64,000 nt of DNA from Variovorax paradoxus NBRC 15149 (GTDB taxonomy: Bacteria > Pseudomonadota > Gammaproteobacteria > Burkholderiales > Burkholderiaceae_C): assembly GCF_001591365.1 (NCBI RefSeq), contig NZ_BCUT01000001.1, positions 1,116,001 through 1,180,000 on the forward strand. Reading direction: 5' to 3'. The notes beneath the pieces were generated by a model. That model worked only from the letters and a program-made list of their open reading frames with translations, was not told the origin of the DNA and did not search any database. Every line of letters starts with the position of its first letter. The first letter of the stretch is position 1. Positions 4,721 through 28,843 of this stretch are shown in pieces. A program made the position numbers and the translations under genes.

Positions 4721-4732
4721 ACCTGAATGATT

Positions 4733-4745
4733 TAGTTCTGAACTA
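4733..4745. promoter_or_regulatory. palindromic operator, likely MarR site
   Basis: TAGTTC-T-GAACTA is a perfect 6+6 inverted repeat with one central base, 13 bases before the SDR start and in an A+T-rich patch that contrasts with its surroundings. On the minus strand TAAAAT (4746-4751) sits directly beside it and could be a -10 box. The size and position fit a MarR dimer site that would control SDR-marR-thioesterase. Confidence 0.6.
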
Positions 4746-4772
4746 TTTTAGCGTGTGCGGCGCATCGCCTGT

Positions 4773-10695: not shown

Positions 10696-10738
10696 GGAAA
10701 AGCCCCTCGCAATATCGTTGTTGTTGGAATGAAATGGT

Positions 10739-11902: not shown

Positions 11903-11945
11903 GTCGTAGCTCCGGTGAGATGGATGGAGAAAAGGAACGGAAAAC

Positions 11946-12413
11946 TCAGATGAACAGCTGGATCGCGGGCAAGGCGCGCGCGGCGTTGAGCAGGTCGATG
12001 CGCTTCTCGCGGATGGCCCAGCCCGTGGGCGTGCGCACGAGGTGGTGGCGGGCGGTGCCGGTCAGCAGGATCTGCGATTCGCCGCGCGCTTCGACGTAGA
12101 GGAAAGGCGTGCGCAGGCGGACCGCGCCGCTCGCTTCTTCCTCGATGCGCGAAGGCTGCAGCACATGCTGGCTGTGGCTCGCGGGATGCTGCGAATGGGC
12201 GCGCGGGTTCTTCAGGCGATCCACACGCAACTGCAGCAGCAGCCGGTCTTCGTAGGCAAGGGAGTTGTGCGAGAACGGATCGGCCTGCGCGGCGCCGAGC
12301 AGCGGTATCCAGTAGTGGCCGTCCTCGGTGAAGAGCGCCAGCCAGTCGTCGAAGCGCCGCTCGTCGAGCAAGGCGGCCTCATGCGCCACGAAATCGCGCG
12401 GATCGTCGTTCAT
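11946..12413 (-). CDS. Rieske aromatic oxygenase, beta subunit (second pair)
   Basis: A 155-residue small subunit with the SnoaL/NTF2-like fold of ring-hydroxylating dioxygenases (LLDERRFDDWLALFTEDGHYWIPL). It has no metal site and holds the alpha3-beta3 hexamer together. It overlaps the alpha gene by ATGA. It resembles the beta subunit at 22211-22699; both end in AVQLFI or AIQLFI, so the two pairs are likely duplicates. Confidence 0.9.
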   Translation of the reverse strand: MNDDPRDFVAHEAALLDERRFDDWLALFTEDGHYWIPLLGAAQADPFSHNSLAYEDRLLLQLRVDRLKNPRAHSQHPASHSQHVLQPSRIEEEASGAVRLRTPFLYVEARGESQILLTGTARHHLVRTPTGWAIREKRIDLLNAARALPAIQLFI

Positions 12414-13735
12414 GCCGCGGCCTCCATGCCCGCCACCATCGACTTCGCCCAGGCGCGGAACTGGTTGCGCATGAGCAGTTCGTTGGTGCCGTTGGTGGTG
12501 AGGGTCGATTGCGCGAGTTCAGCCGCGTCGTAATTGCGGTGCAGGCTCACCCATTCGTTGCCGCCCGCGCGCAGGCCCTGCTGGATGCTCTCGAACAGGT
12601 GCACGTCGTCATGCGCGACCACCGACATCGGCGAGAACACGAGCCGGTTGTAGTTCATCGCGCGTTCGAACAGCAGTTCGGGCGCGCCTGCCGCGCGGAA
12701 ACTCCAGGCTTCAATGAGCGTGCGGTCCGCGGCCAGCGGGCGGATCACGCGGATGGCCTGCGGCGAGCCCTTGACCGACAGGCTCGGATAGAAGACCGAG
12801 TTCTGCGGCGAGCGCTGCAGGATCTCGGCCGCGTGCTCCTCGCCATGGGCGGCGCGCATCGCAGCTTCGTACTCGGGCAGCTGGGCGTAGTTGGAGTGGA
12901 TGCTGAAGTTCACGCCCAGCACGCTGTGGCCATTGGCGAACACCCGCCCGCCCATCTTGTCGAAGAATTCGTAGCCGGATCCGAAGGGCAGGATCTGCTC
13001 CATTGCCATCGGCTTGGGGTCAGAAGGGGCATGGCCTTCCCACAGCGCCTCGGCCGCCTTGGTGGCCGACTCGTGCGTCGACATCGGATGCACCGTGTCG
13101 TTGATGTTCTCGAGATACATCTTCCAGTTGCAGTGGACGATGTTGCGCAGCACGCCGCCGCCCACCGTGAGCCGGCCCTCGGGCGAGCGGTCGACCATGT
13201 TGTCGATGGCGCCGAGCACCTCACCGAAGTAGTCTTCGAACGAGGGGCCGCTGTCCGCGAGCCGCACGAAGACGAAGTCGCGGTAGACCTTCACGTGCTT
13301 CACCACCGAGAGCCCCCGGCCCGACTCGCAGGCCTTGAGCTGCGTGCCCTCGTAGCCGTTCTTCAGCGGCACACCGAGCGGTGCGCCGTCGAGCTTGTAG
13401 GTCCAGGCGTGATACGGGCAGCGAAAGAAGCGGCCGGTGTTGCCGCATTCGTCGGTCACGAGCTGCGTGCCCTTGTGGGCGCAGCGGTTGTACATGACGT
13501 GCACCGCGCCGTCGGGCTGGCGCACCATGAGCAGCGGCCGGCCCGCAATGTCCTGCGCCACGAAGTCGCCCGGCTCCGGCACCTGGCTCGCGTGACCGAG
13601 ATAGACCCAGGTGTTCGCGAACAGGTGCTCCTGTTCGAGCGCGAAGATCTCCTCGCTCAGGTACAGGTCGCGGTGCACGCGGTCGTTCTGCACGAGCGCG
13701 GCGATGCGGTCCGGATGATGGCGGTAGCTGGTCAT
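12410..13735 (-). CDS. Rieske aromatic oxygenase, alpha subunit (second pair)
   Basis: A 441-residue catalytic subunit. The Rieske [2Fe-2S] ligands are Cys85, His87, Cys106 and His109 (CAHKG and CPYHAW). The mononuclear iron site is Asp213-x2-His216-x4-His221 (NDTVHPMSTHE), with Asp376 or Asp377 as likely third ligand. It is closely similar along its whole length to the alpha subunit at 22699-24012. No reductase gene is adjacent, so it probably uses the one at 24032-25024. The substrate is likely IAA or a downstream indolic or aryl acid. Confidence 0.9.
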   Translation of the reverse strand: MTSYRHHPDRIAALVQNDRVHRDLYLSEEIFALEQEHLFANTWVYLGHASQVPEPGDFVAQDIAGRPLLMVRQPDGAVHVMYNRCAHKGTQLVTDECGNTGRFFRCPYHAWTYKLDGAPLGVPLKNGYEGTQLKACESGRGLSVVKHVKVYRDFVFVRLADSGPSFEDYFGEVLGAIDNMVDRSPEGRLTVGGGVLRNIVHCNWKMYLENINDTVHPMSTHESATKAAEALWEGHAPSDPKPMAMEQILPFGSGYEFFDKMGGRVFANGHSVLGVNFSIHSNYAQLPEYEAAMRAAHGEEHAAEILQRSPQNSVFYPSLSVKGSPQAIRVIRPLAADRTLIEAWSFRAAGAPELLFERAMNYNRLVFSPMSVVAHDDVHLFESIQQGLRAGGNEWVSLHRNYDAAELAQSTLTTNGTNELLMRNQFRAWAKSMVAGMEAAA

Positions 13736-13756
13736 CGGCGGGCGCTCAGGTTTCTT

Positions 13757-14902
13757 TCAGGGGACCAGCTTCCACTGGCCCTTGTTCATCTGCACGATCA
13801 CCACGCCGCGCTGGTCGGAGCCATAGCGGTCGTCGGGCTTGAAGGTGTAGATGCCGTGCGTGCCCACCAGCTCGCGGGTGGCCACGATGGCGTCGCGCAG
13901 TGCGCTGCGGTACTGCGGAGTGCCCGGTTCGCCCTTGGTGCGCGAGGCGGCATCGGCCAGCAGCAGGTAGGCGTCGTAGGTGTAGGACGAGAAGGCATCG
14001 GTCGGCACCGCGCCGTTGACCTTCTGGTAGGCGCTGCGAAAGCCCATCGACACTTTCTTGATCGGGTTGCTGTCGGGCAACTGGTCGGCCACCAGCACGG
14101 GGCCGCTGGGCACCTGCAGGCCTTCGATGGAAGCGCCGCCCACGCGCACGAAGTCGGCGTTGATGAGGCCATGCGTGCCGTAGATCTTTCCCTTGTAGCC
14201 GCGCTCGGCCAGCGCGAGGTAGGGCAGCGCGCCGGGCGTGCCCGAGTTGCCGGCAAACACCGCATCGGGCCGCTGCGCGACGATCTTGAGCACCTGCCCG
14301 GCCACCGACGAATCGCTGCGCGCATAGCGCTCGTTCGCCACCACCTTGATGCCGGCCTTATCGGCGCTCTTCACGAGCGAGTCGTAGGCCAGGTCGCCCA
14401 GCGCGTCGGAGAAACCGATGAAGGCCACGGTCTTCACGCCGGACTTCTGCATGCGCTCGACCACGCCCGCGACCATGAGCTGGAATGGCTGCGACACGGT
14501 CACGGTCCACGCGCCTTCGGGGCCGGGGATGGTGACGGGCGTGGGCGAGATCAGCGGCGTGTTGAGTTCGCGCGCCACGGACGCAATGGCCATCGCGCCC
14601 GGCACGCCCGAGGTTCCGATCAGCACGTCGACCTTGTCTTCCACCACGAGCTTGCGCGCGTTGCGCCCGGCGGTGGTGGGGTCGGAGGCATCGTCGAGCA
14701 CGATCAGCTGGACCTTGCGGCCGCCGATCTCGGGATGCTCGGCAATGGCGGCCCGAATGCCCTTCTCGTACGGTACGCCCAGTGCAGCGACCGGGCCCGA
14801 GAGCGAGCTGATGAAACCGATCTTCAGGTCGGCCGCCATGGCTTGCGCGGTCGCGAGTGCTGCTGCGGTGAGTGCCAGGATTCGGGTCAGGTTCTGTTTC
14901 AT
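13757..14902 (-). CDS. ABC transporter substrate-binding protein, copy 2
   Basis: A 381-residue secreted binding protein with a clear signal peptide (cleavage after AMA, before ADLKIG). It shares most blocks with copies 1 and 3, such as SSLSGPVAALGVPYEKG and DDASDPTTAGRNARKL, and the tail NKGQWKLVP. It lies between the Rieske pair and a repeat-filled intergenic region. Probably an alternative receptor for the same Liv permease with different ligand preference. Confidence 0.9.
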   Translation of the reverse strand: MKQNLTRILALTAAALATAQAMAADLKIGFISSLSGPVAALGVPYEKGIRAAIAEHPEIGGRKVQLIVLDDASDPTTAGRNARKLVVEDKVDVLIGTSGVPGAMAIASVARELNTPLISPTPVTIPGPEGAWTVTVSQPFQLMVAGVVERMQKSGVKTVAFIGFSDALGDLAYDSLVKSADKAGIKVVANERYARSDSSVAGQVLKIVAQRPDAVFAGNSGTPGALPYLALAERGYKGKIYGTHGLINADFVRVGGASIEGLQVPSGPVLVADQLPDSNPIKKVSMGFRSAYQKVNGAVPTDAFSSYTYDAYLLLADAASRTKGEPGTPQYRSALRDAIVATRELVGTHGIYTFKPDDRYGSDQRGVVIVQMNKGQWKLVP

Positions 14903-14943
14903 TGTTGGTGCTCCAAGGTTGTTTTGCGCTGCTGTTCAGGGCG

Positions 14944-15155
14944 TGTGCACAGGCCACCGGGTACTCCCCTCCGCGAATGTCCTCCGCCTTCGGCTCCTCC
15001 TTGATTTCGCTGCGGGGAGCACCCGATGCCCTGTGCACGAGGACACGCTCTGGATGCACAGCTGATCAACGACCCCTCCGCACAACGCTCCCGTCGATGG
15101 GGTGCCTTGCGCAGCGAAATCAAGGAGGAGGCCGAAGGCCGGGGGACATTCGCGG
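14944..15155. repeat. compound inverted repeat filling the gap between two binding-protein genes
   Basis: The 333-base gap 14903-15235 has no gene. It holds nested repeats. About 25 bases at 14945-14969 (GTGCACAGGCCACCGGGTAC onward) recur inverted at 15014-15038 (GGGGAGCACCCGATGCCCTG onward). The 44 bases between them (14971-15014, with CCTTCGGCTCCTCC and TTGATTTCGCTGCG) recur inverted at 15110-15155. This is a multi-copy intergenic repeat type, folded into large hairpins. It may modulate mRNA stability or mark a recombination point. Confidence 0.7.
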
Positions 15156-15235
15156 AGCAAGGTACCCCGTCGGCGGGAGCGCGCCCCGAATGACCCGCAC
15201 CCGCACCGCGACGATCAAAAAAGCAAGCCGTCATA

Positions 15236-16402
15236 TCAAGGAACCAGCTTCCACTGCCCCTTCTCCAGCTTCACGACAACACGCGACCGTTCATCGGAGC
15301 CATAGCGGTCCGTCGGCTTGAAGTTGTAGACCGAGTGCGTGCCCACCAGCTCCTTGGTGCTCACGATGGCGTCGCGCAGCGCCAGGCGGAACTGCGGCGT
15401 GCCGGGCTCGGCCTTGGTGGCGAGTGCGCGCTGGGCCGCATCGAGGTACAGCAGCCAGGCATCGAAGGTGTAGGCCGAGAAGGCATCGGTCGGCGGTGCG
15501 CCGTTGGCCTTCTGGTAGGCCGCGCGGAATTCCATCGACACCTTGCGGATCGGGTTCTCGCTCGGCAGCTGCTCGGCCACGATCACGGGGCCGGTCGGCG
15601 CCAGCAGCCCTTCGACCGAGGCGCCGCCCACACGCACGAAGTCGGGGTTGATCAGTGCGTGCATGCCGTAGATCTGGCCCTTGTAGCCGCGCTCCGCGAG
15701 CGCCAGGTAAGGCAGTGCGCCCGGCGTGCCCGAGGTGCCGGTGATCACCGCGTCAGGACGCAGCGCCACGATCTTGAGCACCTGGCCGGTCACCGACGAA
15801 TCCGCGCGCGCATAGCGCTCGTTCGAGACGATCTTGATGCCTGCGGGCTCCGCGCTCTTTTGCAGCGCGTCGTAGACCAGGTCGCCCCAGGCGTCGGAAA
15901 AGCCGATGTAGCCGACCGTCTTCACCCCCGACTTCTTCATGCGCTCGACCACCGCGCTCACCATCAGCGGCGCGGGCTGCGGCAGCGTGACCATCCAGGC
16001 GCCCTCCTCGCCCGGCAGGTTGGCGTTGGCGATCGAGATCAGCGGCGTCTTCGTCTCGCGCGCCACGCCGGCAATGGCCAGCGCACCGGGCGAGCCTGCG
16101 GTGCCGATGATGACGTCGACCTTGTCCTCATCGATCATCTTGCGGGCATTGCGCGCGGCGGTGGACGGATCGGATGCATCGTCGAGCTGCACCAGCTGGA
16201 TCTTGCGGCCGCCGACATCCGCCTTGTAGGCGAGCGCGGCCTTCATGCCCTTCTCGTAGGGAATGCCGAGCGACGACACTGGTCCCGACAGCGACGTGAT
16301 GAAGCCGACCTTGAGATCGGCGGCCCACGCGCCCGCGGCGCTCAGGGCGCCAAAGGCCGCGGCAATGCCCGCGATGGCACGGAATCGGTTCAGGACTTTC
16401 AT
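15236..16402 (-). CDS. ABC transporter substrate-binding protein, copy 3
   Basis: A 388-residue secreted binding protein of the same LivJ-like family (signal peptide ending GAWA, then ADLKVGFITSLSGPVSSLG). It is nearest to copy 2 by eye. It is the first of the three copies in the direction of transcription, following SDR 16456-17178 after 53 bases. Three receptors for one permease suggest a widened ligand range (IAA and related indolic or aromatic acids). Confidence 0.9.
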   Translation of the reverse strand: MKVLNRFRAIAGIAAAFGALSAAGAWAADLKVGFITSLSGPVSSLGIPYEKGMKAALAYKADVGGRKIQLVQLDDASDPSTAARNARKMIDEDKVDVIIGTAGSPGALAIAGVARETKTPLISIANANLPGEEGAWMVTLPQPAPLMVSAVVERMKKSGVKTVGYIGFSDAWGDLVYDALQKSAEPAGIKIVSNERYARADSSVTGQVLKIVALRPDAVITGTSGTPGALPYLALAERGYKGQIYGMHALINPDFVRVGGASVEGLLAPTGPVIVAEQLPSENPIRKVSMEFRAAYQKANGAPPTDAFSAYTFDAWLLYLDAAQRALATKAEPGTPQFRLALRDAIVSTKELVGTHSVYNFKPTDRYGSDERSRVVVKLEKGQWKLVP

Positions 16403-16455
16403 GGCGATGCTCCAGAGGTGATGTTTTTGAACGGAACGAGTGAACGCGGTGATGA

Positions 16456-17178
16456 CTAGAGAGCAAGGCTGCCGACGCTGGTGCCGCCGCAGACGTAGAG
16501 CACTTGGCCCGTGATGAAGCTGCTGTCCGGGTCGGCGAAGAAACGCACGGCGCGTGCCACATCGGCCGATTCGCCAAGGCGCTTGACGGGCACGGAGGCG
16601 GCGAGTGCGCGTTCCTTCTCGCTGCCGGCCTCGACCACGTCGTAGAACATGTCGGTGCGGATCGGGCCCGGCGCCACCACGTTCACGGTGATGCCGTCCG
16701 CAGCGAGTTCGAGCGCCCAGGTGCGCGCCATGCCCAGCATGCCGGCCTTGGTCGCGGAGTAGCTGGTGCGCGTGGCCAGGCCGAGCGCGGCGCGCGACGA
16801 CAGCAGCACCACGCGGCCGAAGCGCTGCGCACGCATCGCAGGCAATGCGCCCTGCACCAGCTGGATCGCACAGCCCAGGTGCAGGTCGACCAGCGCATCG
16901 AGGTCGTCGAGCTTCACTTCGGGCAGCAAGGCCGCGCGGATCACGCCGGCGTTGTGGACGATGGTGGTCGGCGCAAAGCGATCGACCAGTTCGCGCACCG
17001 CCTCGCCGGTGGCGGCGCGGTCGCTCAGGTCGACCTCGATGCTGTGCAGCTTCGGGTGGTCGATGCCGGACTTGCGGCGTGCGAGCGAGATCACTTCGTA
17101 GCCCTGCGCGAGCAGGTCTTCGCAGATGGCCTTGCCAATGCCGGCGCTGCCGCCGGTGACTGCAGCTACCTTGTTCAT
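16456..17178 (-). CDS. SDR-family oxidoreductase
   Basis: A 240-residue classical SDR with TGGSAGIG (residues 8-15), HNAG in place of NNAG, a Ser-rich SSRA segment and the YSATK catalytic Tyr/Lys. It lies between the cyclase-family gene and binding protein copy 3. It could interconvert dioxindole/isatin-like alcohol-ketone pairs or a hydroxyacyl-CoA; this is inference from the cluster. Confidence 0.86.
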   Translation of the reverse strand: MNKVAAVTGGSAGIGKAICEDLLAQGYEVISLARRKSGIDHPKLHSIEVDLSDRAATGEAVRELVDRFAPTTIVHNAGVIRAALLPEVKLDDLDALVDLHLGCAIQLVQGALPAMRAQRFGRVVLLSSRAALGLATRTSYSATKAGMLGMARTWALELAADGITVNVVAPGPIRTDMFYDVVEAGSEKERALAASVPVKRLGESADVARAVRFFADPDSSFITGQVLYVCGGTSVGSLAL

Positions 17179-17199
17179 GCGCGCTCTCCCCGTGTTGCT

Positions 17200-17296
17200 C
17201 CCTCTCCCGCTTGCGGGAGAGGGTTGGGGTGAGGGTGACCCCTGAGGCCTTCGCAGGCCCCCTCATTCCCCGCCTTCTCCCGCGAGCGGGAGAAGG
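17200..17296. repeat. two REP-like palindromes in the SDR/cyclase gap
   Basis: CCCTCTCCCGC and GCGGGAGAGGG (17200-17223), followed by TTGGGGTGAGGG, is the widespread proteobacterial REP-type element. A second palindrome CCTTCTCCCGC/GCGGGAGAAGG is at 17273-17296. A third hairpin, GAGGCCTTCGCAGGCCCCCTC, lies between. Together they occupy the 145 bases between the two genes and may fold in the mRNA to limit 3'-to-5' decay. Confidence 0.8.
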
Positions 17297-17323
17297 AGCC
17301 AAAGCCAATGCGGGAACGGCGAG

Positions 17324-18139
17324 TCATAGCGGGGCTCCCACCAGCGCCAGCACACGCAGCGGACTCCCGCTGCCCTTCTCGATCTTGAGCGGCGGGCAGA
17401 TCAGCACCGCGCCCGAGGGCGGCAGCAGGTCGAGGTTGCTCAGGCACTGCAGCCCGTAGCGGCCCGCGCCGTGCATGTAGTAGTGGCACGGATACGGCGG
17501 ACGCAGGTGGTAGCCCTGCCCGGCATCGGTGCCGATGGCTTCCGAGCCGAAGCCCAGCACGTCGCGCTGCTCGACCAAAAAACGCACGGCCTCGGTGCTC
17601 GGGCCGGGCGTGTGCTGGCCTGTTTCGTCGAAGTTCTGGTAGGCCTCGGGGTCGCTGCGCTTGGACCAATCGGTGCGCATCAACACCCATGCGCCCTTCG
17701 GAATGCGGCCATGCGCCGCCTCGTAGCGCTCGATGTCGGCCACGCTCAGCAGGTAGTCGTCGTTCGCCTGCACGTCGGCCGAGCAATCGATCACGCAGGC
17801 CGGCGCCACGAAGTTCTGCACCGGAATTGTGTCGACCGAATTGTTCGGCAGGTCGCGGCCCGAGATCCAGTGGATCGGTGCGTCGAAGTGCGTGCCCGTG
17901 TGCTCGCCGCAGGAAAAATTGTTCCAGTACCAGCCCGGGCCGCGCTCGTCGTACTTCGACACTTCCTCGATGCGGAAGGGCCAGCACTGGCCCATCTCGG
18001 GCGGCAAGGCGATCTGCGGGAACTCGGGCGTGAGCGTCTGCGTGAGGTCGATCACGCGGATGCGGCCGCTGGCCATCGCGGTCACGAGGCCGCCGAGGAT
18101 TTCGGCGGCGGACATCAGTTCGGTGGTGGTTGTGGTCAT
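17324..18139 (-). CDS. cyclase-family metal-dependent hydrolase (isatin hydrolase/kynurenine formamidase-like)
   Basis: A 271-residue cyclase-family (PF04199-type) protein. The metal-binding signature H-x-G-T-H-x-D-x-P-x-H is at residues 80-90 (HTGTHFDAPIH), followed by W91. Known members open amide rings or cleave formamides with Mn or Zn: isatin hydrolase, arylformamidase. Inside an IAA cluster, hydrolysis of isatin to isatinate is the attractive role, but it could act on another lactam. I chose the ATG at 18139 because the upstream frame encodes nothing family-like and overlaps the preceding gene. It is distinct from the kynB at 63287. Confidence 0.85.
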   Translation of the reverse strand: MTTTTTELMSAAEILGGLVTAMASGRIRVIDLTQTLTPEFPQIALPPEMGQCWPFRIEEVSKYDERGPGWYWNNFSCGEHTGTHFDAPIHWISGRDLPNNSVDTIPVQNFVAPACVIDCSADVQANDDYLLSVADIERYEAAHGRIPKGAWVLMRTDWSKRSDPEAYQNFDETGQHTPGPSTEAVRFLVEQRDVLGFGSEAIGTDAGQGYHLRPPYPCHYYMHGAGRYGLQCLSNLDLLPPSGAVLICPPLKIEKGSGSPLRVLALVGAPL

Positions 18140-18155
18140 CGTGTGGCTCCTGTTC

Positions 18156-19409
18156 TCAGCCGCCTGCCGCGAGCTCGCGTTCGAGCACCTTGGGGTTGTC
18201 GCGCCAGCGCTCCAGCCACTCCTGCGCCACGTCGCCCGGATACACGTCCTCGACACCGTCGCGCAGCGCCTTGACGATGGCATTGGCCAGCGCGGTGGGC
18301 GCGAGCTTCGGCGGCGGTGTGTGCTGGTTCCACTCGTCGTCGATGGGGCCGGGAAACACGTTGATCACGCGGATGCCGGCGGGCCGCATCTCGGCGCGCA
18401 GGCACTGCGCAAGCGAATGCGCGGCCGCCTTCGAGGCGCTGAAGGTGCCGTGCGGCGGGAAGTTGCTGAGCGCGTAGATCGACAGCAGGTTGACCCAGGC
18501 CGTGGCGCCCGTCGCGCCGTCGGCCGAGCGGCCCTTGAGCGCGGGGCCGAACTCCTGCGCAAGGCGCAGCAGGCCGAAGTAGTTGATGTCCATCTCGGCC
18601 TTGGCCACGTCGGTGCCGCGGCGCGCGCCGATGCCGAAAGTGCGGTGGACCTCGGCGTTGTTGATCACGATGTCGACCTTGCCGCCGATGGAGCCCGCGA
18701 GCTCGGTCACCTGCCGGCCGTTGGTCAGGTCCAGCGGCACCAGCGTGACCTGAGGCAGCGCCGAGATGTCGTCCAGCCCCTCGCCCATCTTCTTCCACGG
18801 CTCGGCGTGGCCGACCCAGACGATGTCGGCGCCGGCCTTCACCAGCGCGCGCACGATGGCCTGGCCGACCTCGGTCTTGCCGTCGGTCACCAGTACCTTG
18901 CGGAACTTGGGGTCGCTGGTCATTTCACGCAGCATCTTGTCGTCGGCCATGTGGGGACTCCCTTCAAACGGAAAACCAATGAGGACGGCCTGGCCCGCGC
19001 GGTCGAGCCGGGCGCCCACGCGCACTCTTTGCGGCGCATCGCCGACCTCGCCATGCAGGTGGACCATGAGCGTCGGGCCGGCATCCAGGTGCACCAGGCC
19101 CAGCCGCCAGGGCAGCCTCTCGCGGAAGAACAGGTCGTTGCTGTGGTGCAGCGTGGTGCTGCCGAGCAGTTCGCCCTCGCCGCTCTGCGCACGCCAGCGC
19201 AGAGCAGCCGAGAGGCACTTGTGGCAGACCTCGCGCGGTGGGTACTGCACCGTGCCGCATCGGTCGCAGGTCTGCAGCTCGAAGCGGCCTTCGGCCGCGG
19301 CCGCCGTGAGGCCGAGCGCCACGCGGCCGCGCGCGCCGGGCGGCAGGTTCATCTGCCGGGTGCGCAGCACCGGGTTCTTGCGCGGGGGGCGCATCAGGGG
19401 CATCGTCAT
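18156..19409 (-). CDS. fusion: OB-fold/zinc-ribbon (DUF35) domain + SDR domain
   Basis: One uninterrupted 417-codon frame. Residues 1-150 are a DUF35-type acyl-CoA-associated protein: rubredoxin-like zinc ribbon Cys48, Cys51, Cys62, Cys65 (CDRC...CHKC) and an OB fold. Residues 154-417 are SDR-like but lack the usual TGxxxGxG (VTDGKTEVG instead) and have Phe323 where the catalytic Tyr should be (TFSASK), with Ser310 and Lys327 kept. An internal ATG at 18950 has AAGGGAG upstream, so a separate SDR product could also be made. The start overlaps the thiolase-like gene by ATGA, as expected of a DUF35 partner. Confidence 0.8.
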   Translation of the reverse strand: MTMPLMRPPRKNPVLRTRQMNLPPGARGRVALGLTAAAAEGRFELQTCDRCGTVQYPPREVCHKCLSAALRWRAQSGEGELLGSTTLHHSNDLFFRERLPWRLGLVHLDAGPTLMVHLHGEVGDAPQRVRVGARLDRAGQAVLIGFPFEGSPHMADDKMLREMTSDPKFRKVLVTDGKTEVGQAIVRALVKAGADIVWVGHAEPWKKMGEGLDDISALPQVTLVPLDLTNGRQVTELAGSIGGKVDIVINNAEVHRTFGIGARRGTDVAKAEMDINYFGLLRLAQEFGPALKGRSADGATGATAWVNLLSIYALSNFPPHGTFSASKAAAHSLAQCLRAEMRPAGIRVINVFPGPIDDEWNQHTPPPKLAPTALANAIVKALRDGVEDVYPGDVAQEWLERWRDNPKVLERELAAGG

Positions 19410-20578
19410 GCGGGTCTCCCGAGAATGACGGCGCCCGTACAGAGGCAGCGGTCGTAGGTCACCATGCCGAAGCCGGCGACGAGGCCCAGCTGCGCGTCGG
19501 GCACCGCCCGAGGGCCGGCCTGGCCGGTCAACTGGCGGATCGCCTCGACCATGCCAAGAAAGCCGCCCGCCGCGCCGGCCTGCCCGCCCGAGAGCTGCCC
19601 GCCGCTCGTGTTGTTCGGAAAGCTGCCGTCGAAGGTCATCGTGTTGGCCTGCACGAAGGCCGCGCCCTCGCCCTTCTCGCAGAAGCCCAGGTCCTCGAAC
19701 TGCATCATCACGATGACCGGATAGTCGTCGTAGGTCTGCACGAAGTCGAGCGCGGCGGGCTGCACGCCGGCCTGCGCATACAGATCGTCGCGGTCCATGC
19801 GCCAGCCGCCCTGCACCATCACCGGATCGTCGGCATAGGCGTTGTGGCGCTCGATGGCGCCGCGGATCACCACATGCGCAAGACCGAGGTCGCGTGCACG
19901 CTCCTCGCTCATCACGAGGAAGGCGTCGGCGCCCGCGCAGGGCATCACGCAGTCGAACAGGTGGATCGGGTCCGAGATGGGCCGCGCGGCCATGTATTCG
20001 TCGAGCGTGAGCGGCTTCTTGAACATCGCGTTCGGATTGCCGAGCGCATTGGTGCGCTGGTCCACGCAGATGCGGCCGAAGTCCTCGCGCCGAGCGCCGT
20101 AGCTGCGCATGTAGTTGGCCGTGATGAACGCGAAGATCGAGTTGGGTCCGCCCGAACCGTAGGGATAGCTCGCATCGCGTGCGAAGTTGCTGAAGCTGCC
20201 CAGCGTCTGGCGGAAGGAGTCGACATGGTTGGTGTCGGCCCCCACGCAGGCCACGATGTCGGCATCGCCCGCCTGCACGGCGCGCGCCGCGCGGCGCAGG
20301 CACATCACGCCCGAGGCGCCGCCCGTGGGCACATGGTCGAGCCAGCGCGGCGAAAGGCCCAGGTGCTGCGTGACGCCCACGGCCGTGTCGGGCGCGAGCG
20401 AGAAGCTGCTGAGGCACAGGCCGTCGATCTGTTCCTTGGCCACGCCGCTGGCTTCGACCAGCGCCTCGATGGCCTGCCCGATGAACCAGTGCGCGGTGCG
20501 CGTGGAGTAGCGCACATAGGGCACGGTGATGGGCACGGCCACCGCGACGCCTTCGTAGGAGAGTCGTCGTTTCGTCAT
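19406..20578 (-). CDS. thiolase-like (SCP-x type) protein lacking the nucleophilic Cys, probable retro-aldolase
   Basis: A 390-residue thiolase-fold protein of the lipid-transfer/SCP-x group. At the position of the thiolase nucleophile, C-A-S-G, it reads G-A-S-G (Gly87), so ordinary thiolysis is unlikely. Other family blocks remain (NHVDSFRQTLGSFSNFA, EDLGFCEKGEGAAFV, NTSGGQLSGGQ, GFGMVTYDRCLCTGA). Steroid-degrading Ltp2 has this fold, also lacks the Cys, requires a DUF35 partner and cleaves a beta-hydroxyacyl-CoA; the next gene supplies a DUF35 domain. I infer a retro-aldol cleavage releasing acetyl-CoA. It overlaps both neighbours by ATGA. Confidence 0.85.
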   Translation of the reverse strand: MTKRRLSYEGVAVAVPITVPYVRYSTRTAHWFIGQAIEALVEASGVAKEQIDGLCLSSFSLAPDTAVGVTQHLGLSPRWLDHVPTGGASGVMCLRRAARAVQAGDADIVACVGADTNHVDSFRQTLGSFSNFARDASYPYGSGGPNSIFAFITANYMRSYGARREDFGRICVDQRTNALGNPNAMFKKPLTLDEYMAARPISDPIHLFDCVMPCAGADAFLVMSEERARDLGLAHVVIRGAIERHNAYADDPVMVQGGWRMDRDDLYAQAGVQPAALDFVQTYDDYPVIVMMQFEDLGFCEKGEGAAFVQANTMTFDGSFPNNTSGGQLSGGQAGAAGGFLGMVEAIRQLTGQAGPRAVPDAQLGLVAGFGMVTYDRCLCTGAVILGRPA

Positions 20579-22203
20579 GCCTGCCTCTTCTTCATGGAGC
20601 GCGTGTCGATGCAATGGCCCTGGCCCGGCAGCGACTGCGCCATCTCGCGCAGCTGGCCGCGCTGGATCTTCTGCGACGGCGTGAGCGGCAATGCGTCGAC
20701 GAAGGCGACATAGCCCGGCGCCTTGTAGTAGGCCAGCTGCGCAAGCGCATGCTCGACGATGCTGGCGGCGATCTGCTCGCGCTGCGTGGCATCGGCGACC
20801 TCCTCGCGCATCACGATGCAGGCCAGCACCTCGTCGCCGCGCACCGCATCGGGCGTGGCAGCCACGGCCGAGGCCTTCACCGCCGGGTGCTGGTTGAGCA
20901 CGCTCTCCACCTCGACGGCCGAGATGTTCTCGCCGCTGCGGCGAATCACGTTCTTCTTGCGGTCGACGAAGAAGAAGTTGCCTTCGGCATCGCGGCGCAC
21001 GAGGTCGCCGGTGTGGAACCAGCCATCGGCCCAGGCTTCGCGCGTGGCTTCGTCGTCCTTCAGGTAGCGGGAGAAGAAGTAGCGCTTCGGGTCGTCGCCG
21101 GCCGAGCGCACCAGCAACTCGCCCGGGGCATCGGTGCCAACGTCGCTGCCGTCCTCGCCCACCAGGCGGATCTCGACGAAGTCTTCCTGCCGCCCGAAGC
21201 AGCTCGTGCCCACGAGCCGCGGCTCTTGGTTGGCCATAATGCAGGCGGCCGCGCCGGTCTCGGTCATGGCCCAGGCCTCGACCAGCGGAAAGCCGAAGCG
21301 CTCTTCGAAAGGTGCGTGGTTCTTGCGGTCCACGCCGGCGCCGAAGCCCCAGCGGATCGCATGGTCGCGGTCGGCCGCCGATGCCGGTGCGGAAAGCAGC
21401 ATCGCGGGCATCACGCCCAGGTAGTGGGCGATGGTCGCGCCGCTTTCGCGTGCGCTCGCGAGCCAGCTCTTCGGATGGAAGCGGTCGAGCTGCACCAGGC
21501 AGCCGCCCGCGACCAGCACCACCATGGTGGAGAAGGCCATCGCGTTCATGTGGTTGAGCGGCAGCGGCGTGATGACGCGCTCGGCGTCGCGCCGGATGCT
21601 GCAGACGCCGTCGAGCGCGGCATACCACTCGCCGGCACGCAGGAAGTAGGCGTTGCTCAGGATGCAGCCCTTGGGGCGGCCGGTGGTGCCGGAGGTGTAG
21701 AGCAGGCCGCATTCGGTGTCGATGCCGACAGGCTCATGCGCCCGCGGTGCGGCCGTCTTCGCGCTCGGCACCGCATCGTTGGGGCCCATGGTCTCGAAGG
21801 CCACACCGGCCTGTGCAGCCGCCGCGTGCAGGTCGGCAGCGCGCTCGGGCAGCGTCACGGCCAGGCCGATTTCGCTGTGGCCGATCAGGTAGGCCAGTTC
21901 GGCCGAGCGCATCTCGGCATTGATCGGCACCACGCTCGCGCCCAGCGCATTGAGCGCGAACCAATGGAAGAGAAACGCGGGCCGGTTCTCCAGCAGCAAG
22001 CCGACGCGGTGGCCGTGCCCATAGCCGGCTTGCGCATAGGCCGCGCGCAGGCGCTCGACCTCGGCCACGGCCTCGCCCCAGCGAGTGGCGCCGGCCGCAA
22101 TGCCGTAGGCGGCCGCGGTCACCGATTCAGTGAACAAAAGCTCAGCCTCCGGCGTGCGCTCGGCAGTCGCTGCGAAAACTTGATGGACGGTGGCGTGTTG
22201 CAT
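20575..22203 (-). CDS. AMP-dependent CoA ligase of the indole-acid cluster
   Basis: A 542-residue ANL ligase: P-loop YTSGTTGRPKG at 169-179, AWAMTETG, GWFHTGD, a RRSGENIS hinge and a C-terminal SQKIQRG with the catalytic Lys. It lies between the IadE-like subunit (7-base gap) and the thiolase-like protein (ATGA overlap), so it most likely activates the product of the dioxygenase to a CoA thioester. It differs clearly from the ligase at 5531-7138, so each may serve one of the two oxygenase sets. Confidence 0.88.
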   Translation of the reverse strand: MQHATVHQVFAATAERTPEAELLFTESVTAAAYGIAAGATRWGEAVAEVERLRAAYAQAGYGHGHRVGLLLENRPAFLFHWFALNALGASVVPINAEMRSAELAYLIGHSEIGLAVTLPERAADLHAAAAQAGVAFETMGPNDAVPSAKTAAPRAHEPVGIDTECGLLYTSGTTGRPKGCILSNAYFLRAGEWYAALDGVCSIRRDAERVITPLPLNHMNAMAFSTMVVLVAGGCLVQLDRFHPKSWLASARESGATIAHYLGVMPAMLLSAPASAADRDHAIRWGFGAGVDRKNHAPFEERFGFPLVEAWAMTETGAAACIMANQEPRLVGTSCFGRQEDFVEIRLVGEDGSDVGTDAPGELLVRSAGDDPKRYFFSRYLKDDEATREAWADGWFHTGDLVRRDAEGNFFFVDRKKNVIRRSGENISAVEVESVLNQHPAVKASAVAATPDAVRGDEVLACIVMREEVADATQREQIAASIVEHALAQLAYYKAPGYVAFVDALPLTPSQKIQRGQLREMAQSLPGQGHCIDTRSMKKRQA

Positions 22204-22210
22204 CGCGTCC

Positions 22211-22699
22211 CTAGATGAAAAGCTGCACGGCCGGCAGCGCCGCGTCGCAGTTGAGCAGGTTCACGCGCTTGAGCGTCATGCGCAGCGCACCGTCCCGCAC
22301 GGTGAGGTGATGGAAGAAGGTGCCGACATAGAACTGCAGTTCGTCGCCCTGCGACTCGGTGTAGTGGAATCCGGTGCGCAGCACGAAGCGATTGCCCTCG
22401 GCGTCGAACTGCTCGACCACCGGCACCTGCAGCAGGTGATGGCAGCGGCTCGGCGGCTGCTGCGAAAACGCGCGCGGGCTCTTGAGCCGCTCGATGCGCA
22501 GTTCGCGCAGCAGCTTGTCCTCGTAGAGGTGCGAGGTGTGGTTGAGGCCGTCTTCCTGGTCGGGCACCAGCGGCACCCAGTAGAAGGCATCGTCGGTGAA
22601 GAGTGCGTTCCACTCCTCGTAGCGGCGGGTGTCGAGCAGGTGCGCTTCGTTCACGACGAAGTCGATCAGGTCCTGGCGGGTGACTTCGGTGCCGGCCAT
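22211..22699 (-). CDS. iadE: Rieske aromatic oxygenase beta subunit, IadE-like
   Basis: A 162-residue small subunit of a ring-hydroxylating dioxygenase (LLDTRRYEEWNALFTDDAFYWVPL, typical NTF2-like fold). It starts inside the stop of the alpha gene (TGATG). The order reductase-alpha-beta, followed by a CoA ligase, matches iadC-iadD-iadE of the reported Variovorax auxin-degradation locus; the symbol rests on that context, recalled rather than checked by alignment. Confidence 0.85.
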   Translation of the reverse strand: MAGTEVTRQDLIDFVVNEAHLLDTRRYEEWNALFTDDAFYWVPLVPDQEDGLNHTSHLYEDKLLRELRIERLKSPRAFSQQPPSRCHHLLQVPVVEQFDAEGNRFVLRTGFHYTESQGDELQFYVGTFFHHLTVRDGALRMTLKRVNLLNCDAALPAVQLFI

Positions 22700-24012
22700 C
22701 ACATCGTCTCCGTCATGCGCTGCACCCACGCGCGGTACTGGTTGCGCATCGGCAGCTCGTTGGTGCCGCCGGTGGTGATCTCCCCACCCTTCAGCTCCGA
22801 CGGGTCGTAGTTGCGATGCAGGCTCACCCACTCGTTGCCGCTCGCATGCAGGCCGGCCTGCATGCCTCGGTAGGCCTGCAGGTCGTCGTGCCCCACCACC
22901 GAGAACGGCGAGTTGATGAGCCGGTTGTACATGGTGGTGCGCTGCAGCAGCTCGGGCGGTGCACCCTTCAGGCGGAAGGTCCAGCTCTCGATCAGCGTCC
23001 TGTCGGCCGAGATCGGCTTGACCACGCGGATCGCCTGGATCGCGCCCTTGATCGTGAGGTTCGGGTAATACACCGTGTTGTGCCGTGCCATGCCGAGGAT
23101 CTGCGCGGTCTTTGCCTCGCCGTAGCGCGCCTTCATGGCGTCGTCGTAGGCCGGGATCGCCTTGTACTTGCTGTGGATGCTGAAGTGCACGCCCGTGAAG
23201 CTGTGGCCGTTGTCGTAGGTGCGGATGCCCATGTCCTCGAAGAACTTGTAGTCGGACATGAAGGGCGCGAACTGCTCCACCGCCATGGGCTTGGGTTCGT
23301 CTTCGGGCTTGTCGGCCCACATGCGCTTGGCGGTGCCGGCCGACGACTCGTGCGCCACCATCGGGTGCATGGTGTCGTTGAGGTTCTCGACGAACATCTT
23401 CCAGTTGCACTGGTGCATGAAGCGCAGGCAGCCGCCGGCGATTTCCAGTTCGCCCTCGGGCGAACGGTCGGCCATGTTGTCGATGGAGCTCAGCGAATCG
23501 CCGAAGTAGTCATCGAAGTCGGGCCCCGCATCGCTGATCTTCACGAAGATGAAGCCGCGGTGGCTGCGCACATACCTGAGCGTGGTCAGGCCCTTGGCCG
23601 ATTCGCACTCGTGCAGCGCGGTGTTCTCGTAGCCGGTCTTGAGCGGAATGGCCAGCAGCGAACCGTCGGTCTTGAAGGTCCAGGCGTGGTAGGGGCAGCG
23701 GAAGAACTTGCCGGTGTTGCCGCAAGGCCCGTTCACCAGCCGCGAGCCCTTGTGGGCGCAGCGGTTCATCATCGCGCGCACGCTGCCGTCAGAGTGGCGC
23801 GCGACGATCAGCGGGCGGCCGGCGATCTCGTTGCTGATCCAGTCGCCGGGCTTGGGCAGCTGGCTCTCGTGGCCGACGTAGTTCCAGGTGTTGGCGAAGA
23901 AGTGTTCCTGCTCCAGCTCGAACAGCTCCTGGCTGGTGTACAGGTCGCGGTGCACGCGGTCGTCCTGGACCAGCGCGCGGATCGCATCGGGGTTGTCTCG
24001 GTACGAGGTCAT
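22699..24012 (-). CDS. iadD: Rieske aromatic oxygenase alpha subunit, IadD-like (IAA dioxygenase)
   Basis: A 437-residue catalytic subunit. The Rieske cluster ligands are Cys85, His87, Cys106 and His109; the mononuclear iron motif is Asp213-x2-His216-x4-His221 (NDTMHPMVAHE). With IadE and reductase IadC it is expected to start IAA breakdown by oxidising the indole ring towards dioxindole-3-acetate. The frame is open 26 codons further, but MTSYRDNPDAI at 24012 matches the start of the paralogue at 13735 (MTSYRHHPDRI). A paralogous pair lies at 11946-13735. Confidence 0.87.
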   Translation of the reverse strand: MTSYRDNPDAIRALVQDDRVHRDLYTSQELFELEQEHFFANTWNYVGHESQLPKPGDWISNEIAGRPLIVARHSDGSVRAMMNRCAHKGSRLVNGPCGNTGKFFRCPYHAWTFKTDGSLLAIPLKTGYENTALHECESAKGLTTLRYVRSHRGFIFVKISDAGPDFDDYFGDSLSSIDNMADRSPEGELEIAGGCLRFMHQCNWKMFVENLNDTMHPMVAHESSAGTAKRMWADKPEDEPKPMAVEQFAPFMSDYKFFEDMGIRTYDNGHSFTGVHFSIHSKYKAIPAYDDAMKARYGEAKTAQILGMARHNTVYYPNLTIKGAIQAIRVVKPISADRTLIESWTFRLKGAPPELLQRTTMYNRLINSPFSVVGHDDLQAYRGMQAGLHASGNEWVSLHRNYDPSELKGGEITTGGTNELPMRNQYRAWVQRMTETM

Positions 24013-24031: not shown

Positions 24032-25024
24032 TCAGATGTCGAGCACCAGGCGCGCACCCTTGGCGCGCGAGATGCAGATCTGCATGACATTGCCTTGCGC
24101 CTTCTCGCGCGCGGTCAGCACGTAGTCGCGGTGATCGATCTCGCCTTCGAGCACGGGCACGGCGCACACGCCGCATTCGCCGCGCTTGCAGTCGAACATC
24201 GGGTCGCAGCCGTGCTCGATCAGGCAGTCGAGGATGCTCTGGCCGGCCGGCACGGTGAAGCGCTGGCCCGATTGGGCAAGCTCCACCTCGAAGGGCTGGT
24301 CGCCTTCTTCCGCGACCGGCTCGGTGAACAGCTCGAAGTGCACGCGGTCGTGCTCCCAGCCACGCGCCTGGGTGCGGGCCAGCACGGCGTCGAGCATGAC
24401 CTTGGGGCCGCAGACGTAGAGGCGGTCGCCGGCGGGCACGCCGTCGAGCAGCGCGTCGATGTCGAGCGGCGCGCCGGCTTCGGCGTCGGCATGCACGCGC
24501 AGGTCGTCGCCGAGCAGCGCCTGCAGCTCGGGCAGGAAGGCCATCAGCTCGCGGCTGCGGCCGGCATAGTGCATGCGCACCGGGGCACCCTCGGCGCGGC
24601 GGCGTGCGGCCATGGTGGCAAGCGGCGTGACGCCGATGCCGCCCGCCACCAGCACCGAGCCGCCGGGGCCGGTGTGCAGCGGAAAGTCGTTCTTCGGTGC
24701 CTCGATGGCGAGCGTGTCGCCCTCGTTCAGTCCTTCGTGCATGAAGCGCGAGCCGCCGCGGCCCTCGGCCTCCTTGCGCACGGCAATCACGTATTCCGTC
24801 GGCGCATTGGTGGCGTTGCGCGCCGTCGCAAAGTTGATCAGCGAATAGTGGCGCCAGTCGGTCCTGCCGTCCGGCAGCGAGACCTGCACGCGGATGTGCG
24901 CGCCGGCCGCAAAGCCGGGCAGCGCGCGGCCGTCTTCGGCGCAGAGGCGCAGCATGCGAATCAGCGGATTGAGCTGGCGCGCTTCGGCAACGCGAAGCTG
25001 GAGCGTGGCGGTGGGAGCGGTCAT
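24032..25024 (-). CDS. iadC: Rieske oxygenase reductase (FAD, NADH, plant-type [2Fe-2S]), IadC-like
   Basis: A 330-residue one-chain electron donor of the phthalate dioxygenase reductase/vanillate demethylase type. The order is a flavin domain (RHYSL at 58-62), an NAD domain (GGIGVTP at 128-134, CGP at 205-207) and a C-terminal plant-type ferredoxin with Cys279, Cys284, Cys287 and Cys317. It passes electrons from NADH to the Rieske cluster of the oxygenases. It is the only reductase in the cluster, so both alpha/beta pairs probably share it. Confidence 0.88.
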   Translation of the reverse strand: MTAPTATLQLRVAEARQLNPLIRMLRLCAEDGRALPGFAAGAHIRVQVSLPDGRTDWRHYSLINFATARNATNAPTEYVIAVRKEAEGRGGSRFMHEGLNEGDTLAIEAPKNDFPLHTGPGGSVLVAGGIGVTPLATMAARRRAEGAPVRMHYAGRSRELMAFLPELQALLGDDLRVHADAEAGAPLDIDALLDGVPAGDRLYVCGPKVMLDAVLARTQARGWEHDRVHFELFTEPVAEEGDQPFEVELAQSGQRFTVPAGQSILDCLIEHGCDPMFDCKRGECGVCAVPVLEGEIDHRDYVLTAREKAQGNVMQICISRAKGARLVLDI

Positions 25025-25042: not shown

Positions 25043-26551
25043 TCAGGCCAATGCGTGCTGCGCCAGCGCAGCCTGCAGCTTGTGGCCGTGTTCGTCGGCA
25101 AGCGCCGCATCGCGCAGCTCGCGCAGCGTGGCTGGGGCCAGCGCCGCACCGGCGCGTTCGACCGCGCGCATCACGGTGTCGTAGTTGCGGATGCCGCGCT
25201 CGTGCGTGTCGCTGTAGCCCTTGACCAGGCGCTGGCACTGCGCGAGCTCGACGGCCAGTTCGGGGTTGCGCTTCGCGGTGGCGGCGATGCGCTGCAGCCA
25301 TTCCTCGATGCGGCGGTTTTCCTCCGCGTAGCGCATCGTCGAGCGGCGCCAGCGCTTCATGGCCGCGACGGTGCGCAGCATCAGGTAGCCGCGCAGCGAA
25401 CTGGTCTGGATCACGCGGCCGTGCTGCGTGAAGCGCTCGACGATCCTCTTCGGCAGCGTGGAATTCATGAGCCAGCGGCCGATGCCGCCCGGCAGCGTCT
25501 CGCAGATTTCCTGCAGGCGCGGATGCATGTATTCGTTGATGGCAAGCACCTGGCCGGGCTGCACGCGCGCTTCGCCGCGCACGCGCTCGAAGCGGGTGGC
25601 ACGGGTCTTGAGCGCAGCCACGCGGGCCGTGTCTTCGTACGACATCCAGAGCGCCAGATGGCGCGCAGTCTCGCGCAGCAGCCGCTGGTCGCCATCGACC
25701 GGCAGCGCCGCCACGGCAGCCATGCGGTCGAGATACAGGCTGGCATAGGCCGCGTCCTGGTAGTCGATCAGGCGGCGCACGCCTTCGAGCAGCAGGCCGT
25801 GCGCCGCAGCAGGAAATTCGCGCTGCACACGCTCGACCAAGGCACGCACGGCCGGATGGCGCGGCTGCGGCGTTGGCATGGCCGCTGCCGCTTCCGGCGG
25901 CGCCTCGCCGTCGTCGCCGCCCTGCGCACGCGCAAATGCTGCACCAAAGGCCTTGAGGCTGGGCTTCACGCCGACGCCGCCGCGCTCGATGGTGGCCTCG
26001 AACTGCGCGCGGCTGAACGGCAGCACGCCCGAGCCCGCCAGCGCGCCGAACAGCACGGCGCTGATCACGCTGCCCGAAGCTTCGGCCGCCTGCGCCATGT
26101 CGAAGCGGATGAAGCGCTTGGCGGCCCGCGCGGTGTGCGCGAGCAACTGCGCGCTGTCGACGCGGCCGTCGCCGAGCGCGCTCTTCTCGGCAATGGAGAA
26201 CACGCGGTGCGTGGATGCGATCAGCGTGGTGCGGTCGCTGGTGACGAGCCCGCGCTGCACCGCGCGTCCCGCCTCCATGAGTTCCGAAGCCAGCACCACG
26301 TCGACATCGCCCGGCAGCGGCATCAGCGCGAGCACGGGGCGGCCGCCATCCGCCTCGGCCTGCGCATTGGGATACAGCTCGACGTAGTAAATGGTGGCGC
26401 CGGTGCGCTGCGCCACGCCGGGCACCGAGGTGGTCTGCGCGACGTAGCCGTTGGCCTCGCCCATGTCGACGATCCAGTCGGCCAGCACGCCGCCGCCCTC
26501 GCCGCCCATGGCAAGGATCGCGATCTTGATCGGTTGCGCCTTGTTCGTCAT
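25043..26551 (-). CDS. indolepyruvate oxidoreductase beta-subunit family protein
   Basis: A 502-residue protein. Residues 1-190 are the gamma-type domain of 2-oxoacid oxidoreductases (ILAMGGEGGGVLADWIVD, SVPGVAQRTGATIYYVE). The remaining 300 residues are a helical extension found in a subgroup of such proteins. With the alpha subunit it would turn indole-3-pyruvate, or another aryl-pyruvate, into the acyl-CoA, passing electrons to an iron-sulfur acceptor. The start at 26551 follows TGAAGCG; an in-frame ATG at 26566 overlaps the upstream stop and is possible. Confidence 0.85.
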   Translation of the reverse strand: MTNKAQPIKIAILAMGGEGGGVLADWIVDMGEANGYVAQTTSVPGVAQRTGATIYYVELYPNAQAEADGGRPVLALMPLPGDVDVVLASELMEAGRAVQRGLVTSDRTTLIASTHRVFSIAEKSALGDGRVDSAQLLAHTARAAKRFIRFDMAQAAEASGSVISAVLFGALAGSGVLPFSRAQFEATIERGGVGVKPSLKAFGAAFARAQGGDDGEAPPEAAAAMPTPQPRHPAVRALVERVQREFPAAAHGLLLEGVRRLIDYQDAAYASLYLDRMAAVAALPVDGDQRLLRETARHLALWMSYEDTARVAALKTRATRFERVRGEARVQPGQVLAINEYMHPRLQEICETLPGGIGRWLMNSTLPKRIVERFTQHGRVIQTSSLRGYLMLRTVAAMKRWRRSTMRYAEENRRIEEWLQRIAATAKRNPELAVELAQCQRLVKGYSDTHERGIRNYDTVMRAVERAGAALAPATLRELRDAALADEHGHKLQAALAQHALA

Positions 26552-26555
26552 CGCT

Positions 26556-28748: not shown

Positions 28749-28805
28749 GTCGGTCCTTGTTCTCTCTCGTGGGACGGTGCGTGCAAGCTGCCGCACCGTG
28801 CTTTC

Positions 28806-28843
28806 TATAATGTTGACAAATGAATGTATCCACAATCATGAAT
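28806..28843. promoter_or_regulatory. divergent control region between iorA-like gene and marR
   Basis: The 159-base gap 28749-28907 contains an A+T-rich core. On the minus strand TTGTGG (28835-28830), 17 bases, then CATTAT (28812-28807) would drive the iad-type unit. On the plus strand TATAAT (28806-28811) and TTGACA (28813-28818) occur. Two direct repeats, ACAA-ATGAAT (28816-28825) and ACAATC-ATGAAT (28832-28843), with the ATGAAT parts 18 bases apart, overlap these elements and are candidate MarR contacts. Confidence 0.5.

Follow-up and report, generated by a model that had tools for sequence, protein, structure and literature searches.

Through the indole-3-acetate degradation (iad) pathway, root bacteria such as Variovorax remove the auxin indole-3-acetic acid (IAA) and safeguard the growth of roots; the pathway is also being engineered into other bacteria, according to a 2025 preprint (PMC12633357). 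The same text reports compounds of the formulas C10H9NO4 (dioxindole-3-acetate, DOAA), C8H7NO2, C8H7NO3 and C7H7NO and a nine-gene region C-D-E-F-G-H-I-J-K2, with CoA ligase, thiolase, alcohol-dehydrogenase and formamidase annotations and a dehydrogenase in the corresponding places. A ketothiolase and a "reductive removal" were inferred there, the central C–C cut of the pathway being assigned from annotation. Deletion of iadG or iadH in V. paradoxus significantly lowered anthranilate and raised C10H9NO4 (PMC12633357, accessible part), and isatin, isatinic acid, dioxindole and anthranilic acid were reported in this species in the excerpts of another paper (PMC9613470). The proteins IadF to IadJ were tried for IAA binding and none bound it, as stated in an extract of a third paper (PMC10374108). 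Here, the iad locus in 64,000 bp of the V. paradoxus NBRC 15149 genome (NZ_BCUT01000001.1, positions 1,116,001-1,180,000; this whole stretch is called the window below) was analyzed, with emphasis on the thiolase-like protein IadG, its neighbor IadH and the cyclase-family protein IadI.

It is probable that IadG and the DUF35 domain of IadH form a redox-neutral retro-aldolase that converts dioxindole-3-acetyl-CoA (DOAA-CoA) to isatin and acetyl-CoA, and that IadI then converts isatin to isatinate. The retro-aldol cleavage had been proposed in the initial annotation of this DNA, and as a prediction it gained support from the catalytic motif table, the tree, the fold match and the published deletion phenotypes. 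IadF likely makes DOAA-CoA, which IadG together with the DUF35 domain would cut without any redox step. Tyr283 would deprotonate the tertiary 3-hydroxyl, whose oxygen the backbone at Gly87 would hold; Asp285, with Gln328 and Gln333, would give the proton back to the acetyl-CoA enolate, and IadI likely opens isatin to isatinate. What was observed directly here are sequences, the state of each motif, the order of the genes, the tree and the matches between folds; the metabolites and the drop in anthranilate after deletion of these genes in V. paradoxus come from the preprint and one paper; and the IadG reaction, the IadG–IadH complex, the roles of the residues and the loss of the redox function of IadH are inferred. 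The aldolase and isatin-hydrolase legs of this predicted route, which is the best-supported reading, are well supported; its least certain parts are the catalytic function of Asp285 and that of the short-chain dehydrogenase (SDR) domain. With a retro-aldol reaction, the published mutants would be accounted for, no redox cofactor would be required, acetyl-CoA would be released and IadI would act as an isatin hydrolase.

A Pfam search of IadG gave Thiolase_C_1 (121 bits) and a Thiolase_N match below its cut-off. Conservation was estimated in the window and 91 loci, namely 11 plasmid loci, picked from 38 records so as to be diverse, and the top 80 among at least 587 genome matches. The initial annotation had noted Gly87 in place of the nucleophilic Cys, and this was borne out: in the alignment, Gly87 stands where the thiolases 7YVY and BbsB carry their nucleophilic Cys, and GG was found at this site in 91/92 IadG sequences. 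Such constancy, like that of the IadI metal motif (86/86), shows that these motifs did not arise by chance. In the lone exception (L006), the IadG frame is split over two frames at that very site; this split frame in Azospirillum thermophilum (about 939-2890) carries no annotation in the gene table of the record. The motif YDDY was present in 92/92 sequences and in 6/6 further genomes. The latter, from other families and with three of one genus, are six of the 8 genomes that carried the IadH fusion among 398 drawn evenly across the phylum. Tyr283, the putative catalytic residue and the first of the YDxx motif, and Asp285 were found in 92/92 sequences each, as were Gln328 and Gln333. In the alignment with solved relatives, the thiolases 7YVY and BbsB and the paralogues L003-L005 from the same genome have the Cys nucleophile, HDAF or HDCF, and GHP. 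In the two DUF35-coupled enzymes that are proven aldolases, Gly is combined with YDCY or YDHF and GHP is missing; IadG has Gly87, YDDY and GQA. The assumption that IadG is a ketothiolase was rejected, as Cys is replaced by Gly87, the His of HDxF by Tyr283 and the His of GHP by Gln333 (the two His sites in 92/92 each). Six paralogues of IadG were listed in its own genome; the four with loci (L002-L005) entered the motif table and the tree, and the two weakest were left out. One of the four (L002, G000:C2:703181-704212) has GG, YDAF and HPG, like the uncharacterised 4U4E, and is possibly another thiolase-fold aldolase.

The coupling to DUF35, also claimed initially, was confirmed by the domains zf-ChsH2 and OB_ChsH2_C encoded next to iadG; the initial annotation omitted that the same open reading frame continues into an SDR domain. 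The four zinc-ribbon cysteines were found in 91/91 IadH sequences. The cofactor motif TGxxxGxG was found in 0/91 sequences and in 0/6 further genomes, and the catalytic Tyr of SDR enzymes is missing in 78/91; the Variovorax clusters P0132 and P0135 (the latter 97% identical to IadH of the window) have FSASK. The fold listing for IadH consisted of SDR rows, with the DUF35 part outside its reach. The SDR half has probably ceased to work as a dehydrogenase and been retained as a scaffold. That IadH acts as an ordinary, active dehydrogenase was rejected because of the loss of TGxxxGxG in 91/91 sequences and the Phe323 at the Tyr site in the window.

The chemistry of the predicted substrate would point in the same direction. 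C3 of DOAA is a tertiary alcohol that cannot become a β-ketone, so thiolysis would have no substrate, while a retro-aldol reaction would lead in one step to isatin and acetyl-CoA. Isatinate, formed from isatin by addition of water, has the formula C8H7NO3, which is among those reported; dioxindole plus water would be C8H9NO3. The best explanation of C8H7NO2 would then be a side reduction of isatin. The published assignment has the acetyl side chain taken off reductively by a ketothiolase (IadG) and an alcohol dehydrogenase (IadH), which yields C8H7NO2, the formula of dioxindole, and lets IadI act later as a broad amidase. It draws on annotation, metabolite formulas and the build-up of C8H7NO2 in an iadI deletion (PMC12633357, accessible part). 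We consider it improbable, because IadG has other residues in place of the thiolase Cys and at each of the two His positions checked, DOAA-CoA would have no β-keto group, the SDR motifs of IadH are degenerate as described above, and C8H7NO3 matches the hydrolysis of isatin, not of dioxindole. The preprint mutant data fit the redox-neutral retro-aldol better than a ketothiolase with reductive removal.

IadI was attributed to the PF04199 cyclases. As the initial annotation stated, it is encoded by the gene next but one to iadG, and its HTGTHFDAPIH fits HxGTHxDxPxH. The metal motif HxG[T/A]HxDxPxH, the WxW/FxW pocket motif and GLQC were each found in 86/86 IadI sequences, and GLQC in 6/6 further genomes; the counted columns were those of the metal motif, GLQC and WxW, with the LaIHA triad Asp-His-His (His79, His207, Asp) outside the count. 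Isatin-hydrolase signatures including GLQC/GLAS are named in the accessible part of PMC6117287. IadI matched isatin hydrolase A structures with 374 bits and a kynurenine formamidase with 24 bits, and it is 62% and 64% identical over the aligned parts to LaIHA (5NNA/5NNB) and RsIHA (5NMP), with which it shares the metal motif, WxW and GLQC. In the cyclase tree, from which an own-genome cyclase with no BLAST match (L099) was left out, IadI grouped with LaIHA, RsIHA and LaIHB apart from KynB (support 95/97), as the check proposed initially would have it. The two outgroup branches of this tree are saturated (length 10), so the identity of IadI rests on motifs and sequence identity rather than on the tree. 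By sequence, IadI is an isatin hydrolase. Its classification as a kynurenine formamidase was rejected (TIGR03035, 25.8 bits against a cut-off of 223; control KynB, 292 bits). A true kynurenine formamidase, KynB, is encoded in the same window at 63287-63940 (292 bits) and represents another route towards anthranilate.

In a plasmid locus (L007) of Roseibium aggregatum, the former Labrenzia aggregata, the genes follow one another as C-D-E-F-G-H-I-J; the IadI encoded there and LaIHA are 96% identical over 254 residues. LaIHA was crystallised with isatinate (PMC6117287, accessible part). Thus, a near-identical counterpart of a characterised isatin hydrolase adjoins IadG and IadH, which points to isatin as their product. 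Isatin had been named as the product initially; this is supported by the isatin-hydrolase neighbor and by the isatin and the C8H7NO3 compound reported for V. paradoxus in the accessible texts. A retro-aldol reaction could also occur with dioxindole as the true intermediate, a reductase converting isatin before or alongside IadI. Dioxindole was detected along with isatin (PMC9613470, excerpts), and a compound of the same formula as dioxindole builds up when iadI is deleted (PMC12633357, accessible part); nevertheless, IadI groups with isatin hydrolases, the SDR domain encoded between IadG and IadI is degenerate, and a side reduction of the accumulating ketone would account for the peak equally well, so we regard this variant as quite unlikely.

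A number of points weigh against the retro-aldolase assignment. The best sequence and structure match of IadG is Sal (9MYR), which is only about 3 Z units ahead of thiolases in the fold comparison; Ltp2 (Z 43.3) is level with the thiolases 6ESQ (42.9) and 7YVY (42.6), and a fold match by itself shows no function. In the tree, Sal, Ltp2 and IadG fork without a clear order (20 rows, one Sal and one Ltp2). The Cys of the Sal motif is essential, its A, S and H variants being dead (PMC12329534, accessible part), and as Asp285 replaces it, the proton-return step by this residue is unproven. The use of the top 80 among at least 587 genome loci biases the conservation counts towards near kin; in the plasmid loci alone, IadG identity was 57-66%. 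Tyr and Lys are both kept in 10/91 IadH sequences and Ser in 88/91 (Tyr and Lys both in 0/6 further genomes), which overturned an early pattern from 12 sequences in which the two were never kept together. The nearest solved SDR, 5U4S, was crystallised with NADP despite Leu at the Tyr position in the alignment with IadH, so IadH may bind a cofactor. The iadI mutant accumulates C8H7NO2, the formula of dioxindole and not of isatin (PMC12633357, accessible part), which would require a side reduction of isatin. The iad letters were given by gene order against the preprint region, and IadG, IadH and IadI were matched to its names by order, not by CL14 sequences. An enzyme assay of IadG or IadH was not met in the iad literature surveyed in part, and neither was a retro-aldol or Ltp2/Sal role for IadG, a partial survey by which absence from print is not established.

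In the 91 fetched loci, IadG was found in 91, IadH in 90, IadI in 85, IadD in 77 and IadJ in 75. IadH was missed in L042 and IadI in L042 and L074, where the stretches end early; in L015, L016, L062 and L065, the stretch reaches beyond IadG–IadH (and contains IadF) with no cyclase match, and the pair there may act on a different substrate or supply isatin to a different enzyme that consumes it. That IadG–IadH is an aldolase for some other β-hydroxyacyl-CoA, with DOAA not the real substrate, is very improbable: these four loci and the whole genomes with IadG–IadH–IadI and no IadD homologue at the cut-offs used would agree with it, but IadI was matched in 85/91 IadG loci, two of the six misses are stretches ending early, and the iadG and iadH deletions lower anthranilate and accumulate C10H9NO4 in V. 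paradoxus (PMC12633357, accessible part).

The IadG–IadH–IadI trio also occurs without the oxygenase. At E 1e-40, a search for IadD gave no homologue in the genome of Castellaniella caeni, nor on the trio plasmids of Shinella, Sagittula, Agrobacterium and Neorhizobium, for which the plasmids and not the chromosomes were searched; the Azospirillum plasmid has one. At 1e-80, IadD was not found in the whole genomes G266 and G393, and the other six of the eight have at least one. The C. caeni locus (L082, about 4353-18787) runs from a MarR regulator through IadA, IadB, IadG, IadH and IadI to an ABC transporter (solute-binding protein, permeases and ATPases) and a CoA ligase; this ligase and the second ligase of the window (5531-7156) share 69% identity. 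Dioxindole-3-acetate is an auxin catabolite of plants. Genomes in which IadD was not found may start from ready-made DOAA, Iac-type auxin oxygenases being outside the search. In two loci without oxygenase genes (L013, 11118-11891; L014, 11066-11884), an aspartate/glutamate racemase family gene directly follows the isatin-hydrolase gene.

The initial annotation described a full path to isatinate and anthranilate. Its ring opening by IadI was supported; none of the genes in 17324-22203 (iadF to iadI) accounts for the loss of the extra carbon between isatinate and anthranilate. IadAB is a candidate isatinate consumer, possibly an isatinate oxidoreductase. An IadB match (E up to 1e-40) was found on 23/35 plasmids with the DUF35-SDR fusion (80% coverage) vs 50/72,556 plasmids overall. 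The plasmid records are not independent, as 14/23 are from Sulfitobacter; by genus group, IadB was matched in 8/12 (Roseibium and Labrenzia merged). In addition, IadAB stands in one run with the trio in Castellaniella. Against this role, complementation "fully restored" anthranilate (PMC12633357, accessible part), G393 has the trio and no IadB match at 1e-80, and 12 fusion plasmids gave no IadB match (nine of Roseibium/Labrenzia and one each of Neorhizobium, Agrobacterium and Paroceanicella; chromosomes not searched). A thioesterase gene in the Shinella locus (L011, 226-714) lies directly after the IadB homologue, a position that would suit an acyl-CoA product of IadAB; the thioesterase it encodes is related to a thioesterase of the window (2959-3600) with 43% identity over 126 residues. 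It is possible, if somewhat short of probable, that a wider reading holds: IadG–IadH would add to Sal and Ltp2 a third class of aldolases with the thiolase fold, one that relies on a Tyr-Asp pair and has a former dehydrogenase as its scaffold, the ligase, aldolase and isatin hydrolase would form a portable module, and genomes with no IadD homologue found, such as that of C. caeni, might live on ready-made dioxindole-3-acetate, with IadAB turning isatinate into anthraniloyl-CoA.

The genes of the locus lie on the minus strand in the order IadA-B-C-D-E-F-G-H-I-J, followed by solute-binding proteins. At the coordinates in the table, IadG, IadH and IadI translate as open reading frames; ATGA overlaps were found at the F-G and G-H junctions, the IadH start lying within the IadG stop. 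The locus contains the IadA/IadB markers, the Rieske pair and the MarR gene, markers named in the excerpts of PMC9613470. The nearest named proteins to its products are from Variovorax, and the best-matching genome locus among the best 80 of at least 587 (L017, Variovorax beijingensis) has an identical gene order. IadJ is the dehydrogenase making DOAA in the accessible part of the preprint (PMC12633357). A second Rieske oxygenase pair is encoded at 11946-13735 of the window; its large subunit is 58% identical to IadD, and it is flanked by genes for solute-binding proteins (10739-11902 and 13757-14902).

Table 1. Features of the iad locus in the V. paradoxus NBRC 15149 window.
Feature	Position	Strand	Description
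IadA	26556-28835	-	Indolepyruvate-oxidoreductase alpha-like, 290 bits, under the curated cut-off of 651
IadB	25043-26566	-	Indolepyruvate-oxidoreductase beta family
IadC	24032-25024	-	Reductase
IadD	22699-24012	-	Rieske oxygenase large subunit
IadE	22211-22699	-	Putative oxygenase small subunit, judged from its position and its resemblance to the subunit annotated in L007
IadF	20575-22203	-	AMP-forming CoA ligase, predicted DOAA-CoA maker; deletion phenotype in PMC12633357 (accessible part)
IadG	19406-20578	-	390 aa, thiolase fold, predicted DOAA-CoA retro-aldolase; Gly86-Gly87, Tyr283-Asp284-Asp285-Tyr286, Gln328, Gln333
IadH	18156-19409	-	Single 417-aa open reading frame, DUF35 and degenerate SDR; predicted obligate partner of IadG
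IadH, DUF35 part	19002-19304	-	Zinc ribbon Cys48/51/62/65 and OB fold, residues 36-136
IadH, SDR part	18324-18899	-	Residues 171-362; TDGKTEVG in place of TGxxxGxG; Phe323 where the catalytic Tyr would be; Ser310 and Lys327 retained
IadI	17324-18139	-	Likely coding sequence, 271 aa from MTTTTTELM; isatin hydrolase by sequence (HTGTHFDAPIH, WYW, GLQC)
IadJ	16456-17178	-	SDR with TGGSAGIG and YSATK in translation; internal contrast to IadH
MarR regulator	28908-29384	+	Sits at the IadR position

A comparison with the iad locus of V. paradoxus CL14/CL014 (PMC9613470, PMC12633357) indicated that the gene set and order are alike as far as the accessible texts tell, with nine genes from C to K2 in both; however, the published enzyme assignments of IadG, IadH and IadI differ from those argued here. 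For IadG, three systems serve for comparison. Like IadG–IadH, the benzoylsuccinyl-CoA thiolase BbsAB combines a thiolase-like subunit with a DUF35 subunit. Unlike IadG, BbsB retains Cys, HDAF and GHP (7PXP). With regard to the steroid aldolase TcLtp2-ChsH2 (6OK1), the likeness to Ltp2 proposed initially held for the Gly at the Cys site, the Tyr of YDxx and the DUF35 partner. It did not hold for the rest of the motif, where the His of YDHF in Ltp2 is Asp in IadG, or for the second catalytic Tyr344 of Ltp2, which is Gln333 in IadG and Gln352 in Sal; the Ltp2 branch is long in the tree, the nearest solved relative is Sal, and "Ltp2-like" is thus only approximate. The hydroxyl of the Ltp2 substrate is on the ring carbon C17 (PMC12329534, accessible part), akin to that of the predicted IadG substrate. 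The bile-acid aldolase CtSal-CtShy of Comamonas testosteroni (9MYR; PMC12329534, accessible part) has, like IadG, the thiolase fold, Gly at the Cys site, the Tyr of YDxY, the Gln pair and a DUF35 partner. However, its Cys304 is Asp in IadG, and DUF35 is fused to a MaoC hydratase in Shy and to an SDR in IadH (in 33/33 scanned partners). In addition, Sal releases an aldehyde, as described in the same source, whereas IadG is predicted to release a ketone from a tertiary alcohol. As Asp replaces the Cys of Sal or the His of Ltp2, IadG is neither of them and would represent a sister class, with a predicted new catalytic pair (Tyr-Asp) in a fold whose proven aldolases stem from steroid degradation.

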